From assembly GCA_017474455.1 (NCBI GenBank), contig JAFVHP010000027.1, positions 1-38,752 on the forward strand: 38,752 bases of DNA. The letters are read 5' to 3'. The translations under genes were made by a program, and so were the position numbers. The notes beneath the pieces are model-generated. The model saw only the letters and a program-made list of their open reading frames with translations, had not been told where the DNA came from and did no database searches. The DNA is from Lachnospiraceae bacterium (lineage in GTDB: Bacteria; Bacillota; Clostridia; Lachnospirales; Lachnospiraceae). Positions 4,023 to 14,796 of the stretch are shown here, one piece after another. Every line of letters starts with the position of its first letter. The first letter of the stretch is position 1.

Positions 4023-5072
4023 TCACTTTCTTACTTTCCAGAGATACTTGCCTTCGCGTCCTTCCAGATATGCCGTGATCTCTTCCGCCATCATTCTTCC
4101 TGACCAGCCGTCCACGTCTGTAGTAAGGCCTGCCATATGCGGCGTGCAGACGACATTTCTCATCTTGAGCAGCGGATGGTTGACAGGAACGGGTTCTTTC
4201 CAGTAAACATCAACGGCTGCACCGGCGATATCGCCGTTCTCAAGCGCTTCGACAAAATCTTTCTGGTCAAGCACGTATGCCCTTGCCGTATTTATAACGA
4301 TGGCGCTCTTTTTCATCTTTGAGAACCAGTCTTTGTTCACGATGTTTTTGCAGGAAGGGATCGTAGGCAGATGCAGGGAAAGGATATCGGACTCCGCAAG
4401 CAGCGTATCCAGGTCAACGCCCCTTGCACCGTCGGCTTTGGCAAGTTCTTCATTCAGATAAGGATCATATGCCAGGATCTCCATGCCGAACGCTTTCGCG
4501 CGGACGGCGACTTCACGGCCGATCGCGCCGTAGCCGGCGATACCGAGTTTCTTTCCGTACAGTTCAAAGCCGATGCCGTAATCCGTGAACGGGTGCTTTT
4601 CATCCAGAGGTCCGAAAGTAACATTCTTTACATCCGGAACATCATAGATATCGCATGCTTCGGAAGTGTGGTCGCCCTTCATCAGGCCGGCGGCGGAAAG
4701 CGTGATCTTTCTGGCGGCGCAGAGCATAAGGGCGATCGTATATTCAGCCACGGCTACACGGTTCCTGCCAGGAGTGTAGGACAGGGAAAGTCCCGCTGCC
4801 TGGATCGCGTCGAAATCGACAGTCGCGGGTGTTCCTTTGGCTACGCCGATGAACTTCATGCCGGCGTCCGCCCAGGCTTTAATCGTATCCGCGCCGGCAT
4901 ATTCATCGCCGAGCACAACAAGCTCCGCGCCCATGCATTCCTCGCGGGTCATCTCTTCCGTGACGTTGCCTCTGCCGTGTTTCAGTTCGCCGCATTCGAT
5001 GATCTCGCACTTTTCTCTGATCGGTGCAAGAAGTTCTTCCGAGATCGGTGTGCATAAAGCCATTTTCTTCAT
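4023..5072 (-). CDS. D-2-hydroxyacid dehydrogenase, NAD-dependent (SerA/LdhA fold)
   Basis: About 349 residues. The Rossmann motif GIAGYGAIGREVA and the catalytic triad of the family can be seen: Arg in NTARAYVLD, Glu in YWKEPV and His in CTPHMAG. It should interconvert a 2-hydroxyacid and a 2-oxoacid with NAD(H). An in-frame ATG exists at 5141, but the ATG at 5072 starts the recognisable fold (MKKMALCTP) and has GAGAGGG upstream, so 5072 is chosen. Upstream lies a leader motif shared with the IMP cyclohydrolase gene. In the operon it could process the lactaldehyde- or glycolaldehyde-derived acid; this is inference. Glyoxylate/hydroxypyruvate reductase or phosphoglycerate dehydrogenase are alternatives. 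Confidence 0.9.
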   Translation of the reverse strand: MKKMALCTPISEELLAPIREKCEIIECGELKHGRGNVTEEMTREECMGAELVVLGDEYAGADTIKAWADAGMKFIGVAKGTPATVDFDAIQAAGLSLSYTPGRNRVAVAEYTIALMLCAARKITLSAAGLMKGDHTSEACDIYDVPDVKNVTFGPLDEKHPFTDYGIGFELYGKKLGIAGYGAIGREVAVRAKAFGMEILAYDPYLNEELAKADGARGVDLDTLLAESDILSLHLPTIPSCKNIVNKDWFSKMKKSAIVINTARAYVLDQKDFVEALENGDIAGAAVDVYWKEPVPVNHPLLKMRNVVCTPHMAGLTTDVDGWSGRMMAEEITAYLEGREGKYLWKVRK

Positions 5073-5080
5073 TTTAAATA

Positions 5081-5155
5081 CCCTCTCATTTCTGAAGCGC
5101 TGCATTGCACCCGCCGGGTGCCGGACGTGACGCTTCCGCACGGCCGGTTGCTGTC
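5081..5155 (-). promoter_or_regulatory. Structured leader motif, copy A (putative cis-regulatory RNA)
   Basis: Minus strand, from just after the alcohol dehydrogenase stop to the ribosome binding site of the 2-hydroxyacid dehydrogenase. It reads GACAGCAACCGGCC, GTGCGGAAGCGTCACG, an inner perfect hairpin GCACCC-GGC-GGGTGC, then CGCTTC closing on GAAGCG, and ends ATGAGAGGG, the ribosome binding site. Both flanks match copy B at 13117-13212. I cannot assign it to a known riboswitch class. Confidence 0.5.
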
Positions 5156-5157
5156 CT

Positions 5158-6303
5158 TTAATATGCTTCCTTCAGGATAGCAAGAACATCTTCCTTCGTT
5201 ACGCCCTGTCTGGGATTGAAATTTAGCACCGGCTCTTTAAGTACATCTTCAGCCAGTCTGTCGAACGCTTCTTCCGGGACGCCCTGTTCGGAAAGGGTCC
5301 TGATCCCGACTTCTTTGCAGAGTGCCTTAAGGGCATCCGCAAGCAGATATTTGTCCTTATCGGCATCGCTGTTTCCGCCGATCCCTATAGCCCTTGCAAG
5401 TTCGATCATTTTTTCAGGGACAGCCTCCGCGTTATAGGCCATGACATAAGGCAGTACCGCTGCATTCGCCATACCGTGCGGGAGTCCGAAATGGGCGGAA
5501 AGCGTATGCGCGATCGCGTGTACCAGCCCGAGGTTTGCGTTGGAAAAAGCAAATCCGGTGATGATGCAGCCGAGCATCATCTGCTCCCTGGCATCCATAT
5601 CACTGCCGTCTTTGACAACGAGAGGCAGGTTCTTATAAAGGATCTCCAGGCCTTTTAATGAATTGTATTCCGTGAGCGGCGTGGCCATATTGGATATATA
5701 GCTTTCGACCGCGTGCGTGATCGCGTCCATTCCTGTAGCGGCTGTTACCGAAACGGGCATGGTACGTGTGAATTCCGGATCACAGATAACATCGGAAGCC
5801 ACGATCCTGTTGTCGATAATGACATACTTGATGACCTTCTCCGTGTCGATCAGCGCGGAAACATTCGTGATCTCGCTGGATGTTCCTGCCGTTGTGGGGA
5901 TAGCAATGAGCGGAAGGCAGTCATTTTTGACCATGTTCATCCCGCCGTATTCCCCGATACTGCCCGGATTGGTCATCAGGACGTTGACAGCTTTGGCAAG
6001 GTCGATACTGCTGCCCCCGCCGACAGCAACAAACCCCTCTACCCCTTCGTTCTTCGCGATAACGGCAGCTTCTTCTACCACCTCATTCGTCGGATTCGGG
6101 ATGACCCTGTCAAAGATCGTCAGGCCGACTCCTGCCTTATCGATCTCTTCCCGGATCCTGTCGGCTATGCCGGCGGCTTTGACACCGTTGTCATAGACCA
6201 GCATGATCTTCTTAAGTCCGTAGCCTTTTAACAGTTCAGGAAGCTTCCCGGCTGCACCGCGTCCGAAGACCAGGTTACTTTTGACAAAAAACTGAAAACT
6301 CAC
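5158..6303 (-). CDS. Iron-containing (group III) alcohol dehydrogenase
   Basis: 381 residues, full length for the family. GGGSSIDLAKAV is the NAD-binding loop; PTTAGTSSE, GMDAITHAVESY and HAIAHTLSAHFGLPHG supply the conserved Asp and three His metal ligands. It should reduce a short aldehyde such as lactaldehyde or glycolaldehyde to the diol, or run in reverse, with NAD(H). The start is GTG at 6303, with AGGGGGAAG upstream; no better ATG exists at the N-terminus. It is the first gene of the catabolic operon, divergent from the TetR-type regulator. It differs clearly from the FucO-like paralogue at 34505-35650. Confidence 0.93.
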   Translation of the reverse strand: MSFQFFVKSNLVFGRGAAGKLPELLKGYGLKKIMLVYDNGVKAAGIADRIREEIDKAGVGLTIFDRVIPNPTNEVVEEAAVIAKNEGVEGFVAVGGGSSIDLAKAVNVLMTNPGSIGEYGGMNMVKNDCLPLIAIPTTAGTSSEITNVSALIDTEKVIKYVIIDNRIVASDVICDPEFTRTMPVSVTAATGMDAITHAVESYISNMATPLTEYNSLKGLEILYKNLPLVVKDGSDMDAREQMMLGCIITGFAFSNANLGLVHAIAHTLSAHFGLPHGMANAAVLPYVMAYNAEAVPEKMIELARAIGIGGNSDADKDKYLLADALKALCKEVGIRTLSEQGVPEEAFDRLAEDVLKEPVLNFNPRQGVTKEDVLAILKEAY

Positions 6304-11176: not shown

Positions 11177-12355
11177 TCAGTGATGGAACAGACGGATGCC
11201 GGTAAAGCACATGACCATGTCATGGCTGTCGCACGCCGCGATCACGTTATCGTCACGGACCGATCCTCCGGGTTCCGCCACATATTTTACGCCGCTTCTG
11301 AAAGCGCGCTCGATATTATCGCCGAACGGGAAGAATGCATCCGAACCGAGGGAAACGCCGCTGTTGCCGTCAAGCCATGCTCTCTTTTCCTCCGGCATGA
11401 AGCGGTCGGGCTTTACTGTAAACAGGTCTTCCCACTTTCCGTCGGCAAGCACGTCCATATAGTCCTCGCCGATGTAAAGGTCAATGGAGCTATCCCTGTC
11501 CGCGCGGCGGATCTTATCCTTAAAAGGAAGTTCCAGCACCTTCGGTGACTGGCGCAGATACCAGTTGTCTGCCTTGGATCCGGCCAGCCTCGTGCAGTGG
11601 ATCCTGGACTGCTGCCCGGCTCCTATGCCGATCGCTTGTCCGCCCTTTGCGTAGCATACAGAATTGGACTGGGTGTACTTCAGGGTGATCAGCGAAAGCG
11701 CCAGGTCGTTCCTGGCCTCCTGCGGCAGGTCTTTGTTGGCTGTTACGATATTGGCGAACAGTTCGTCGCCTACCACCAGTTCGTTCCTGCCCTGTTCAAA
11801 GGTAACGCCGAACACCTGCTTTCTTTCGACCGGTTCCGGTTCGTATGCCGGATCGATCTCCAGTACACAGTAAGCGCCTTTTTTCTTTTTGGAAAGTATC
11901 TCCAGTGCGGCAGGTTCGTATCCGGGAGCAATGACGCCGTCCGATACCTCCCTTGAAATGATCCTGGCCGTACATTCATCGCACACATCCGACAGCGAGA
12001 TAAAATCGCCGAAGGAACTCATTCTGTCCGCGCCTCTTGCCCTGGCATACGCGCTGGCCAGCGGAGTAAGCTCTCCCAGGTCCTTGACCCAGTAGATCTT
12101 TGCTTCCACTTCGGTAAGAGGAAGGCCGATCGCGGCGCCTGCGGGCGAAACGTGCTTGAAGGAAGTGGCTGCCGGCAGGCCTGTTGCCTTTTTCAGTTCC
12201 CTGACCAGCTGCCAGCCGTTAAAGGCATCCAGCAGATTGATATATCCCGGTCTTCCGTTGCGGACTATAAAAGGCAGGTCCGATCCGTTGTCCATGAAGA
12301 CTCTGGAAGGTTTCTGGTTGGGGTTGCAACCGTATTTCAATTCTAATTCATTCAT
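11177..12355 (-). CDS. AICAR formyltransferase, stand-alone (PurH C-terminal-domain type)
   Basis: 392 residues corresponding to the AICAR transformylase domain only. SFKHVSPAGAA carries the catalytic Lys-His; YTQSNSVCYAKGGQAIGIGAGQQSR and SDAFFPFGDNIERAF are further family marks. It transfers a formyl group from 10-formyl-tetrahydrofolate to AICAR. The inosinicase half of bifunctional PurH is missing; the next gene upstream encodes a PurO-type IMP cyclohydrolase, so the pair replaces PurH. ATG at 12355 has CAGGGAG upstream. Confidence 0.93.
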   Translation of the reverse strand: MNELELKYGCNPNQKPSRVFMDNGSDLPFIVRNGRPGYINLLDAFNGWQLVRELKKATGLPAATSFKHVSPAGAAIGLPLTEVEAKIYWVKDLGELTPLASAYARARGADRMSSFGDFISLSDVCDECTARIISREVSDGVIAPGYEPAALEILSKKKKGAYCVLEIDPAYEPEPVERKQVFGVTFEQGRNELVVGDELFANIVTANKDLPQEARNDLALSLITLKYTQSNSVCYAKGGQAIGIGAGQQSRIHCTRLAGSKADNWYLRQSPKVLELPFKDKIRRADRDSSIDLYIGEDYMDVLADGKWEDLFTVKPDRFMPEEKRAWLDGNSGVSLGSDAFFPFGDNIERAFRSGVKYVAEPGGSVRDDNVIAACDSHDMVMCFTGIRLFHH

Positions 12356-12399
12356 GTTTTATCTCCCTGTAAGAATCTTTTCCGGTAAGGCAATATCGC

Positions 12400-13113
12400 T
12401 CATTCGTGTCTGTTGACGATCCTCGTGTGCCGGGTGCCGTCGGCAACATTGATGAAGCGGACAAAGAGCGAGACTTTGTTGTCTTCGTTCAGCGCATCCC
12501 AGAGCTTTTTCGTAAACGTATCGATATCGTTATCTTCTTCACCAAGTTCTATGGTCTTCGGATCGCCCCTGAAACTGGGCAGCGGATCGCCGTCCGTTTC
12601 ATATGTGTGGATGAAATGCCCTTCCCCGGCAAGAGGAGACGCGTAACCATAAGTGAAACGTTCACAGGAATCAGGGCACCCGTGGGCACTTTTCAAAATG
12701 GAAAGCTGATAGGAATACGCCCCGTCTTCAATGGTCATCATTCCCGAGATCCTGGGCGTGTAGTTGGGCGCATCGGGTTCAAATTCCCGGCTCCTGAGCG
12801 CCTCGGAGAACGACAGTCCCTTTGTGAGTCCGGCATATACCGTATCTGTCTGGTCTCCGTTCGTAACGATCGTATTCGGTCCGTATACTCTGACCGGAGC
12901 ATAAATAATAAGGCTGGGATCCTTCATTTTGGAAGGGTCAAATGCTTTCGTCCTTATCCCGTCACCGTCTTCGACAAAGACCCTGTTCCTGCTGTTTTCG
13001 CTCCTGCCCATTATGAAATAAGCAGCGACTGCGTTTTTCCCGTCTGCGGAAAGGCCGAGCATGATGCCTCTGCCCGGATACGGATTACTGCCAAGATCAT
13101 CAAAAATGTTCAT
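12400..13113 (-). CDS. IMP cyclohydrolase, PurO-like
   Basis: About 237 residues. NPYPGRGIMLGLSADGKNAVAAYFIMGRSENSRNR is the N-terminal signature of the archaeal-type PurO family (an Ntn-hydrolase-like fold), here cited only by its first and last motifs NPYPGRG and GRSENSRNR. It closes FAICAR to IMP, the last step of purine synthesis. A start four codons upstream (13125) would use the ATG inside the ribosome binding site; ATG at 13113 with GAGAGG six bases ahead is better. It heads the seven-gene operon and is preceded by leader motif copy B. Confidence 0.9.
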   Translation of the reverse strand: MNIFDDLGSNPYPGRGIMLGLSADGKNAVAAYFIMGRSENSRNRVFVEDGDGIRTKAFDPSKMKDPSLIIYAPVRVYGPNTIVTNGDQTDTVYAGLTKGLSFSEALRSREFEPDAPNYTPRISGMMTIEDGAYSYQLSILKSAHGCPDSCERFTYGYASPLAGEGHFIHTYETDGDPLPSFRGDPKTIELGEEDNDIDTFTKKLWDALNEDNKVSLFVRFINVADGTRHTRIVNRHE

Positions 13114-13116
13114 TCT

Positions 13117-13212
13117 TCCTCTCATTCCGGAGCGTAGCCATGATCTGCCTCAGATATAGTCCGGCACTGTATGCGGGTCCCGTGACGCTCCGGCACAGGG
13201 CCCGTTCCTGCC
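13117..13212 (-). promoter_or_regulatory. Structured leader motif, copy B (putative cis-regulatory RNA)
   Basis: Minus strand: GGCAGGAACGGGCC, then GTGCCGGAGCGTCACG, a variable middle with hairpin ATCTG-AGG-CAGAT, then ACGCTCCGG pairing perfectly over 9 bp with CCGGAGCGT, and ATGAGAGG as ribosome binding site. The stem bases differ from copy A but keep pairing, which looks like compensatory change. An AT-rich -10-like stretch (TATGATAAAAT) lies just upstream, so the motif would be the start of the mRNA. Confidence 0.55.
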
Positions 13213-13243
13213 TGATTATTTTATCATAAAGCACAGCGGATCA

Positions 13244-14239
13244 TCACTCGGAGAGCAAAATATACCCTTTTTCAGCAGATATGCCCTGTTCGGCAGCGGA
13301 TCGGGCCTCGGATTCCGTCATTTCGTCTTTATCGGAAAGGATATAAACAGTGTGAGAAATGCCCTGTTTATCCGTATATGCAGCGGTCACCAGGTATCTG
13401 TAGCTGTATTCTTTTCCGTCCGCGTCCACGGTATATGCGCTGCCGTCGAAACGGACATGGGGCTGATCCAGTACCGCAGCCTGCCCGGATGAAGCGGCTT
13501 CAGCGAATGCCCTGATCTCATCCGCGCTGCTCTTTTCTGCATCGGCTGCCATTGTCTCCTGTCCGGCAGTATTTCCCGCGGCAGCAAACGAAGCCGCGGG
13601 GGCCTCTTCCAGTTCAGCCGCTTCTTCAGTCTCTTCCGCTTCTGCTGCTGCGTACAGTTCCGCCATCGGTTCCTCCGCGGCTGTTACGGCCGCTCCTTCA
13701 TCTGCAGCAGCTGCTGCGGAGGCCATCTGCGCAGTATACATATCCGCTTCCGCCGCCTCCGCGTCTGGTATTTCTTCCGTCATATCATACATCACACCTG
13801 AACCGGCGCCCGCAGTGACCGTTCCCGATTCCCCTGCCTTTCTGGCTGCTGTTTCGGCAGGTGCCTCCTCTTTAGCCATGCTCACGGCAGGAGCTGCCTC
13901 TTCTGCCATCATTCCGGCAGGTGCCGCCTCTTCAACGGCATACTCTTCGGCTGCATATTCTTCGGCCGGGGCAGCCGCCTGTTCCGCCGCGGGTACGCCA
14001 GCAGCGCTGTCATGGCTGCCCATGTTTATCCCGTTCACGAACCGAAGCGTGAATACTGCCAGAAATGATGCCGCCGCCAGTGCCGCTATATACGGCAGCC
14101 GTCTGACGAATGTCTTTCTCCTGTTTCCATTCACCGATACAGTATCATCTGCGGTACTGCCGTCCCGCATCTTCTGTGCCTGTTCCAGCAGGTCATCGTC
14201 GATATACTGCAGCGCGTCCATAAGCTTTGATCCGTTCAT
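13244..14239 (-). CDS. Membrane-anchored anti-sigma-like protein with Ala/Glu-rich extracellular stretch
   Basis: 331 residues, not assignable to a named family. Residues 1-47 are cytoplasmic (MDALQYIDDDLLEQA is common at the start of Firmicute anti-sigma proteins); 49-67 are one membrane segment; about 79-235 are an Ala/Glu-dominated low-complexity stretch with repeated EEAAPA-type units; 236-331 form a small globular end (DGSAYTVDADGKEYSYRY). Its ATG overlaps the stop of the ECF sigma factor gene (ATGA-type overlap), so it most likely binds that sigma factor and releases it on an envelope signal. The function is inferred from architecture and position. Confidence 0.8.
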   Translation of the reverse strand: MNGSKLMDALQYIDDDLLEQAQKMRDGSTADDTVSVNGNRRKTFVRRLPYIAALAAASFLAVFTLRFVNGINMGSHDSAAGVPAAEQAAAPAEEYAAEEYAVEEAAPAGMMAEEAAPAVSMAKEEAPAETAARKAGESGTVTAGAGSGVMYDMTEEIPDAEAAEADMYTAQMASAAAAADEGAAVTAAEEPMAELYAAAEAEETEEAAELEEAPAASFAAAGNTAGQETMAADAEKSSADEIRAFAEAASSGQAAVLDQPHVRFDGSAYTVDADGKEYSYRYLVTAAYTDKQGISHTVYILSDKDEMTESEARSAAEQGISAEKGYILLSE

Positions 14240-14796
14240 ATATCAAAGCCCTCCTTACTTAAGTATGCCTTTAATCCCTTACGTTCCCTGAAAAGGATCG
14301 ATTTGATATTCTGTACTGTCAGCCCGCTTTTTTCGGAGATCTCCTGGAGCGGGTCCATATAGAAATACCTGCACAGGAAAACATTCCGCCGTTTTTCCGG
14401 TATAGACCTGAGATAATCGGATATGGCTCTGCCCAGTTCCTTCAGGTCATACATTTCTTCAGGAGAGGCGCCGCCTTCCAGCATTTCCGACAGTTCGTCA
14501 AGGCAGACTGAATACGCCGAACCCGCACGCTTTAAGCTGTGCTTCCGGCGGTAAATGTCGATCGAGCGTTCACGGGTGATCTTGCCCAGAAACAGAGAAA
14601 GCCTGTCCGGCCTGTGCGGCGGCATGGATTCCCATGCTTTCAGGTAGGTATCGTTTACGCTCTCTTCACTGTCCTCTTCGCTCATCAGGATATTCATCGC
14701 GATCTTCATAAGATAACGGGAATATTTTTCCTGCGTATATGTGATCGCGGACTCGTTCCTTTCCCAATAAAGGGCAACTATCGCGGAGTCTTCCAT
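14236..14796 (-). CDS. ECF-type RNA polymerase sigma factor
   Basis: 186 residues with regions 2 and 4 only. Region 2 holds YLMKIAMNILMSEEDSEESV, NDTYLKAWESMPPHRPDRL and ITRERSIDIYRRKH; region 4 holds IPEKRRNVFLCRYFYMDPLQEISEKSG, followed by a recognition helix TVQNIKSILFRERKGLKAYL. It would direct polymerase to stress or envelope genes and be held by the membrane protein translated directly after it. It starts 22 bases after the RluA-type gene, probably co-transcribed. The target promoter cannot be read here. Confidence 0.93.
   Translation of the reverse strand: MEDSAIVALYWERNESAITYTQEKYSRYLMKIAMNILMSEEDSEESVNDTYLKAWESMPPHRPDRLSLFLGKITRERSIDIYRRKHSLKRAGSAYSVCLDELSEMLEGGASPEEMYDLKELGRAISDYLRSIPEKRRNVFLCRYFYMDPLQEISEKSGLTVQNIKSILFRERKGLKAYLSKEGFDI

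Follow-up and report, generated by a model that had tools for sequence, protein, structure and literature searches.

Two elements in a Lachnospiraceae contig belong to a dispersed family of pseudoknotted leaders that probably spread by insertion before start codons

Two homologous leaders in one contig

The stretch of DNA analysed here (the window) comprises 38,752 nucleotides of a Lachnospiraceae bacterium, and two short elements, copy A and copy B, lie in it on the minus strand, each in front of a protein-coding gene (Table 1). Copy A fills the gap between the genes of an Fe-type alcohol dehydrogenase and a D-2-hydroxyacid dehydrogenase. Copy B precedes an IMP cyclohydrolase-like gene, next after which comes a phosphoribosylaminoimidazolecarboxamide formyltransferase gene (NF005492). 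Immediately upstream and in the same orientation as copy B lie a 331-aa Ala/Glu-rich protein with no Pfam or NCBIfam match at E ≤ 0.001 and, upstream of that, an ORF that we take to resemble an ECF-type sigma factor. A consensus scan gave no promoter for copy B.

The initial annotation had described the two copies as sharing a series of ordered motifs and stems, all of which are present, and the copies are homologous. The motif GRCAGSAACSGGCC occurs exactly twice in the window, once per copy, and still twice when up to one mismatch is allowed, against 0.12 expected from shuffles; in the 2.62-Mb genome it is likewise found exactly twice, and its reversed control 0 times. It is followed in both copies by GCGTCACG, which has one further occurrence elsewhere and by itself is no more frequent than expected by chance, 9 of 100 shuffles reaching its count, and ATGAGAGG comes after the closing stem in copies A and B alike. 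The closing stem is as had been described, with nine pairs in copy B and GAAGCG facing CGCTTC in copy A. Copies A and B fold no better than dinucleotide shuffles (z −0.28 and −0.27), and two-sequence MAFFT alignments of them miss the motif register. A third, weaker copy is present in the genome (contig 11, 99621-99729, E 7.9e-6), where the gene behind it is of the S30AE ribosome-associated family.

The pairing that had been put forward earlier is real as far as the closing stem is concerned, bases changing while pairing is kept, but it was incomplete, a second helix, the hairpin P1, having been overlooked. Because the nine-base loop of P1 (CCGGAGCGT in copy B, CGGAAGCGT in copy A) contains the 5′ strand of the closing stem, the two helices make up an H-type pseudoknot. 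Its 3′ strand stops short of the Shine-Dalgarno sequence (SD) by 3 nt in copy B and by 6 nt in copy A. The computed energy of the P1 hairpin is −13.7 (B) and −13.8 (A) kcal/mol, each value including two extra pairs within the loop, and that of the pseudoknot duplex −16.9 (B) and −9.1 (A) kcal/mol.

Table 1. Positions in the window of the two elements, their parts and the neighbouring genes
Feature	Position	Strand	Remark
Copy B, whole element	13115..13210	-	covariance model R1, 60.8 bits, E 8.9e-12
Copy B, GRCAGSAACSGGCC	13199-13212	-	
Copy B, GCGTCACG	13181-13188		
Copy B, P1 5′ strand GGGCCCTGTG	13194..13203	-	P1 covaries across the family
Copy B, P1 3′ strand CACGGGACCC	13175..13184	-	one C-A mismatch and one U-G pair against the 5′ strand
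Copy B, 9-nt P1 loop CCGGAGCGT	13185..13193	-	5′ strand of the pseudoknot helix (closing stem)
Copy B, pseudoknot helix 3′ strand ACGCTCCGG	13127..13135	-	9 pairs
Copy B, P3 inner hairpin ATCTG-AGG-CAGAT	13143..13155	-	
Copy B, Shine-Dalgarno-like GAGAGG	13118..13123	-	3 nt behind the pseudoknot
IMP cyclohydrolase-like gene (PF07826) behind copy B	12400..13113	-	ATG at 13113; in-frame ATG also at 13125
Ala/Glu-rich protein (331 aa) and sigma-factor-like ORF upstream of copy B	13244-14796	-	range of both together
Copy A, whole element	5080..5155	-	R1, 28.9 bits
Copy A, GRCAGSAACSGGCC	5142-5155	-	
Copy A, GCGTCACG	5126-5133		
Copy A, P1	5147-5139 with 5129-5121	-	one mismatch; loop 5138-5130
Copy A, pseudoknot	5136-5131 with 5099-5094	-	GAAGCG with CGCTTC
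Copy A, P3	5121-5116 with 5112-5107	-	
Copy A, Shine-Dalgarno sequence	5087-5082	-	
D-2-hydroxyacid dehydrogenase gene (PF02826) behind copy A	4023..5072	-	ATG at 5072
Fe-type alcohol dehydrogenase gene (PF25137, PF00465)	5158..6303	-	stop codon directly before copy A

Spread, fold and covariation of the family

When 62 genomes of the genus were scanned with a pattern tolerating up to two mismatches, most counts stayed at chance level, but genome G054 had 95 matches against 10 in the control (90 against 1 with a tighter pattern). The 30 G054 matches that were inspected represent one common element, located mostly just 5′ of gene starts. Genome G002 had 31 pattern matches against 8 in the control, yet the covariance model R1 finds none there. 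R1 was built from 16 sequences, namely copies A and B, one each from G011 and G056 and twelve from G054, and was the model for all further analysis. Matches were found in 37 of the 62 genus genomes (E ≤ 0.01), in 24 of 392 genomes of the order (E ≤ 0.001, scoring limited to 10 candidates per genome) and, among 398 genomes of the phylum (E ≤ 1e-4, scoring limited to nine), only in the window's own genome. A deeper search with up to 150 candidates scored per genome, in 18 genomes chosen because matches were already known, returned 145 matches in G054, 77 in G383, 49 in G401, 48 in G361, 44 in G114, 43 in G350, 25 in G014, 24 in G066, 18 in G375, 15 each in G203, G425 and G420, 12 in G031, nine in G007, four in G187 and three each in G000, G056 and G011. 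The elements measure about 70-150 nt and reach well over a hundred copies per genome. Among the matches listed for G114, G401 and G425, eight start at base 16-25 of a contig, as would be expected if a near-identical high-copy repeat breaks assembly.

In named genomes a DNA pattern picked out 96 stretches, and R1 confirmed 75 of the 80 that were tested. The titles of the confirmed loci are those of Lachnospiraceae, Roseburia, Acetatifactor, Eisenbergiella, Fimimorpha, Clostridiaceae and unclassified MAGs, and the five unconfirmed stretches come from Curtobacterium, Microtetraspora, Pseudomonas, Mesorhizobium and an unclassified Clostridia MAG. The elements occur in Lachnospiraceae and, beyond these, in one other family of the order. 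A pattern scan of viral contigs gave 0 matches and a plasmid collection no match to the element; phage collections contain three 'Bacteriophage sp.' records with part of the element (MT836788, MT837007, MT838414). The first of these, in which the ORF behind the element is presumably enolase-like, judging from its sequence, looks like bacterial DNA.

The fold was assessed in several ways. The 16-row alignment, which covers P1, P3 and the pseudoknot, has pairing in 91.4% of its cells, compared with 27-43% in slid controls, and two-sided changes are seen in 11 of 30 pairs, as high a value being reached in 0 of 500 shuffles; further pair types, one of five covariation measures, show no excess over shuffles (142/500). 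With 77 rows, for P1 and P3 only, two-sided changes occur in 23 of 23 pairs, in an alignment that was fitted to the model and leans to structure, 11 of its rows being weak antisense matches. The pseudoknot was tested outside the model, by determining the longest Watson-Crick helix between each loop and its own or a swapped tail. From 248 R1 rows in the fetched loci, 13 overlapping (antisense or repeated) and 12 duplicate ones were removed to leave 223 elements, of which 218 have the P1 hairpin, with a loop of 9 nt in 173. Over these 218 the helix with the own tail averages 7.28 Watson-Crick pairs versus 6.18 with swapped tails (maximum 6.33 in 50 swaps), and it has at least six pairs in 184 elements and five or fewer in 34. 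For the 60 loops without GGAGCG the corresponding values are 5.80 and 3.96 (maximum 4.37 in 200 swaps), and some lineages have replaced whole pseudoknot helices (CCGCAGACGT/ACGTCTGCGG, GAGAACG/CGTTCTC, CTGAGC/GCTCAG, CCGAAGCGT/ACGCTTCGG). By sequence comparison, P1, P3 and the pseudoknot covary across the family, and the elements have the features of an H-type pseudoknot leader, with a loop paired to a strand beside the SD. The earlier view of the copies as a homologous functional RNA in which pairing is kept under base change is supported. A switch in which the pseudoknot strand would sequester the SD (CUCC with GGAG) was considered but not taken up, since by inspection CGTCTGCGG lineages cannot form such a pairing.

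The statement that the leader lacks the ZTP core and matches no class that could be named also holds, in that no Rfam 15 family, the ZTP riboswitch among them, reaches its cut-off at an element. The whole window at gathering cut-off yields two tRNAs only, and the region 12300-13300 at E ≤ 5 yields one miRNA family inside the gene, with 16.4 bits versus a cut-off of 65. In 20 related loci searched at E ≤ 0.5, AS-pc01 overlaps one element (locus L121; 33.7 bits versus a cut-off of 79), a T-box lies upstream of another (L284), and Clostridiales-1 RNA was found elsewhere in a third locus (L130, 1683-1850, minus; RF01699, 113 bits), near an element. The T-box (L284, 1255-1476, minus) is a leader before pheS, with the start-codon element between it and the gene; the sequence to the left of that element contains an SD resembling its own, which may be the remnant of an older copy since decayed.

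Position at start codons and gain by insertion

Among copies with at least 200 nt of downstream sequence, 193 of 219 have an ORF of at least 60 aa behind the element, compared with 28.6% of random positions; R1 includes the SD region and so favours copies at start codons, and copies elsewhere may be under-counted. The start codon lies 0-2 nt past the model end in 161 copies and is ATG in 185 of the 193, and the other 26 copies include tandem units, shorter ORFs and broken starts. In 100 of the 223 copies an A-tract/T-tract hairpin, P0, is located 5′ of P1, the remaining 123 being without P0 of the scanned form. The 5′ arm of P0 holds a start codon in 93 of the 100 (63 GTG, 17 TTG, 13 ATG, never CTG), and an SD-like 4-mer is present upstream in 87, versus 22.8% of 4460 random positions. 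The simplest reading of the P0 arm is that the element is positioned behind a host SD. Of 97 frames opened at P0, 39 run past the gene start in another frame, 18 stop in P3 or the linker, 17 inside P0, 11 in the P1 3′ strand and two just before the gene, and 10 lead uninterrupted into the gene in its own frame. Since the frame varies in this way, a functional peptide from P0 is unlikely, and a leader peptide was discarded as a candidate, the P0 start codon being present but the frame not conserved. The 10 in-frame start codons may lead to false N-terminal extensions in automatic annotation.

Several variant arrangements were encountered. Six loci (L195, L274, L278, L307, L314, L109) carry head-to-tail tandem elements, in which the SD and start codon of unit 1 are followed by the P0 of unit 2. 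Six others, all from G054 (L083, L085, L090, L101, L105, L106), have a longer insert that replaces P3 or sits in it, and as the insert is common to several of these copies, elements may nest. In L215, L221, L289, L290 and others, CGCTCCGGAATGG-like tails have no recognised P1 partner within 260 nt; some of these occur in shortened derivatives, and further tails of this kind are parts of copies whose P1 is divergent.

Gain of copies could be followed by comparing genome G361 (48 matches) with its relative G485 (93% PheS identity), 19 G361 loci being set against 1.6 Mb of G485, in which R1 detects a confident copy of 58.9 bits and a weak match of 19.4 bits. Seven of the 19 loci have a downstream match in G485, and 12 are without one in the 1.6 Mb compared. 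Six sites (L275, L278, L284, L285, L286, L288) are occupied in G361 and empty in G485, and at the seventh (L290) the gene start failed to align. At L285 and L286 the first codons diverge from G485, yet both flanks anchor the site; at L286 the host SD is retained just left of the element, and at L285, where the G485 gene appears to overlap the preceding gene, the element occupies the junction in G361. Judging from the six occupied and empty sites, copies have therefore been gained by insertion, often behind a host SD. By alignment, no element precedes the closest genus orthologue of copy A's gene (79% identity, the only close one). When the SD segments left and right of 92 elements were compared, the longest common stretch averaged 5.33 versus 4.58 after swapping (0 of 500 swaps as high), and a stricter within-genome test, limited to 32 cases in which the left flank is not element-like, gave 5.53 of 8 matches versus 5.14 (10 of 2000 as high), with four of the 32 perfect. 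Weak as it is, this signal may point to the host SD segment having been duplicated as a target site.

REP and REPIN sequences are short, palindromic, dispersed elements mobilised by Y1 (RAYT) transposases. The present elements are likewise short, dispersed and palindromic; unlike for REP/REPIN, however, nine genomes that have at least 15 element matches each (G054, G066, G361, G401, G383, G350, G203, G375, G425) contain no Y1_Tnp match at E ≤ 1e-8. No transposase, recombinase or reverse transcriptase could be tied to the family. A Y1 transposase, the sole mobiliser type tested, is present in G014, G114 and G420, and was dismissed as the mobiliser because of its absence from the nine copy-rich genomes. 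Within the loci collected, a search confined to GGAGCG-type motifs revealed no enlarged or autonomous copy with an internal ORF. In the three elements examined for it, no terminal inverted repeat joins the element ends; their inverted repeats are mainly P0, P1 and P3, plus the pseudoknot in two, and the remaining short inverted pairs lie within the element, coincide in part with the SD or are found beyond the element ends.

Some known repeats bear comparison with the family. BOX, RUP and SPRITE of Streptococcus pneumoniae, as described in PMC3049150, are small interspersed structured repeats with many copies per genome, thought to be non-autonomous and possibly affecting expression, BOX and RUP having terminal inverted repeats and target-site duplications and SPRITE being terminator-like and enriched near gene 3′ ends. 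The present elements resemble them in being small, interspersed, structured and present in many copies per genome, but differ in lying at start codons and in having an SD and a pseudoknot that covaries. The mobile or repeat motif MRSC-65-2, as described in PMC11109978, occurs in dozens per genome, shows covariation and is thought to be selfish; it is a single long stem from diverse phyla, sometimes near a transposase. Copy number and covariation are thus shared with the motif as sketched there, whereas our family has a pseudoknot, was found here in one order only and is placed at starts. In the literature covered, consisting of titles and abstract openings with subscription journals thinly represented, there is no account of such start-codon pseudoknot repeats, and PMC3049150, PMC11109978 and PMC8632094, in the passages considered, describe other small repeats, none of them start-codon-placed with a pseudoknot. 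The family is apparently undescribed.

One gene, which begins MAMEKIGDGLKK, carries the element in front of it in G008, G011, G056, G062 and a named MAG. For these five loci, the pair G011/MAG being left out, the mean pairwise identity is 0.82 in the element, 0.33 in the upstream flank, 0.47 in the spacer and 0.85 in the first coding bases. Given 82% identity across species versus 33% in the upstream flank, the element is constrained here and behaves as a conserved leader at least at this gene.

Competing explanations and a proposed mechanism

The initial annotation had favoured a ligand-sensing element for purine synthesis, and the expectation was that many copies would precede purine or one-carbon genes. 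In favour of such a riboswitch are the two consecutive purine genes behind copy B and an H-type pseudoknot beside the SD, which resembles the architecture of small translational riboswitches: in SAM-II, SAM-V and preQ1 riboswitches, too, a hairpin loop pairs with the strand just 5′ of the SD. Unlike these, the element is without an Rfam match above cut-off, belongs to no single pathway, occurs in tens per genome and is inserted. Among 20 downstream proteins, picked by hand and hence non-random, with several ORFs cut by the locus end, 18 could be given a family (GH43, TetR_C_8, GreA, TP_methylase, PfkB, Flavin_Reduct, acetokinase, S30AE, FMN reductase, PheS, HemW, MtaB, PyrE, L9, PyrG, TyrS, QueC and Fmt, with PheS and MtaB just below curated cut-offs); they share no pathway, and no other de novo purine enzyme is among them. 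Of 24 orthologous IMP cyclohydrolase loci, one of which (L006) ends 37 nt upstream of its gene match, R1 matches two, the window's own and a weak one in G010 (20.7 bits). The purine-sensing proposal is not supported by these results, and with no pathway association a purine or one-carbon riboswitch was set aside as very improbable. Scatter at random sites, which the initial annotation had named as evidence against a functional RNA, applies by half: the genes are unrelated, but the place relative to the start codon is nearly constant.

As to function, the main rival is a regulon-wide translational switch, in which the pseudoknot would be the target of one trans factor (an RNA-binding protein, an sRNA or some global signal, ribosome state for example) and co-opted copies would have brought many genes under its control. 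Strong covariation beside the SD, the cross-species constraint at one gene and the copy before the S30AE family gene in the window's genome would all suit such a switch, but copies stand before unrelated genes and the pseudoknot sequence has been exchanged between lineages, so that a partner reading the sequence would have to co-evolve; we consider it rather doubtful. To the same degree we doubt that the elements are neutral MITE-like repeats, whose hairpins would matter only as transposition DNA, with the start-codon site reflecting a target preference and the SD being incidental. The 145 matches in one genome, the six orthologous sites that are occupied in one genome and empty in the other, the tandem copies and the decayed tails are what one would expect of such a repeat. 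However, the pseudoknot is no terminal inverted repeat and none joins the ends in the three elements examined, the start codon has a fixed spacing, and at one gene the element, not its flank, is conserved like coding sequence. It could also be that the leader is an attenuator, with ribosomes starting at the P0 codon and translation through P1 setting access to the gene's SD. The frequency of start codons in P0 arms and of SD-like 4-mers before them speaks for this; the frames and stops varying among the 97 P0-bearing copies and the 123 copies without P0 of the scanned form speak against it, and make it distinctly unlikely.

The explanation that we regard as the probable one is that copies A and B belong to a dispersed set of pseudoknotted leaders which spread by insertion directly before start codons and fold to present the SD; the leader would then probably serve as a mobile module for translation start, not as a sensor of purines. 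From 5′ to 3′ a complete element consists of P0 (in somewhat under half of the copies), with a start codon in its 5′ arm behind a host SD, then P1 with its usually 9-nt loop, an optional P3, the strand complementary to the loop (mostly 6-10 bp), the SD and the start codon of the gene. The anatomy suggests that the pseudoknot folds in the mRNA as an independent unit ending a few nucleotides before the SD, and that it may present the ribosome-binding site regardless of the upstream sequence, such that the host gene would still be translated after insertion; some inserted copies may afterwards have been retained as leaders. A more specific version, in which a mobile element targets the ribosome-binding site itself, inserting in sense between SD and start codon with the pseudoknot rebuilding the start and the SD possibly being duplicated, is put forward only tentatively. 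A rebuilt start would make insertion tolerable before housekeeping genes such as those of PheS, L9, CTP synthase and TyrS. The lack of terminal inverted repeats in the three elements examined, the sense placement and the weak SD duplication would be compatible with an RNA-mediated (SINE-like) route.

If the proposed explanation is true, some Lachnospiraceae have dozens to well over a hundred genes with a common RNA-encoded translation start that derives from a spreading element. The ribosome-binding site would be an unusual insertion target, and the element a natural, portable ribosome-binding-site module and a candidate expression part, as well as a source of wrong start-codon and small-ORF annotation. 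Two questions would then become testable, namely what moves the element, and whether the pseudoknot switches translation or merely insulates it.
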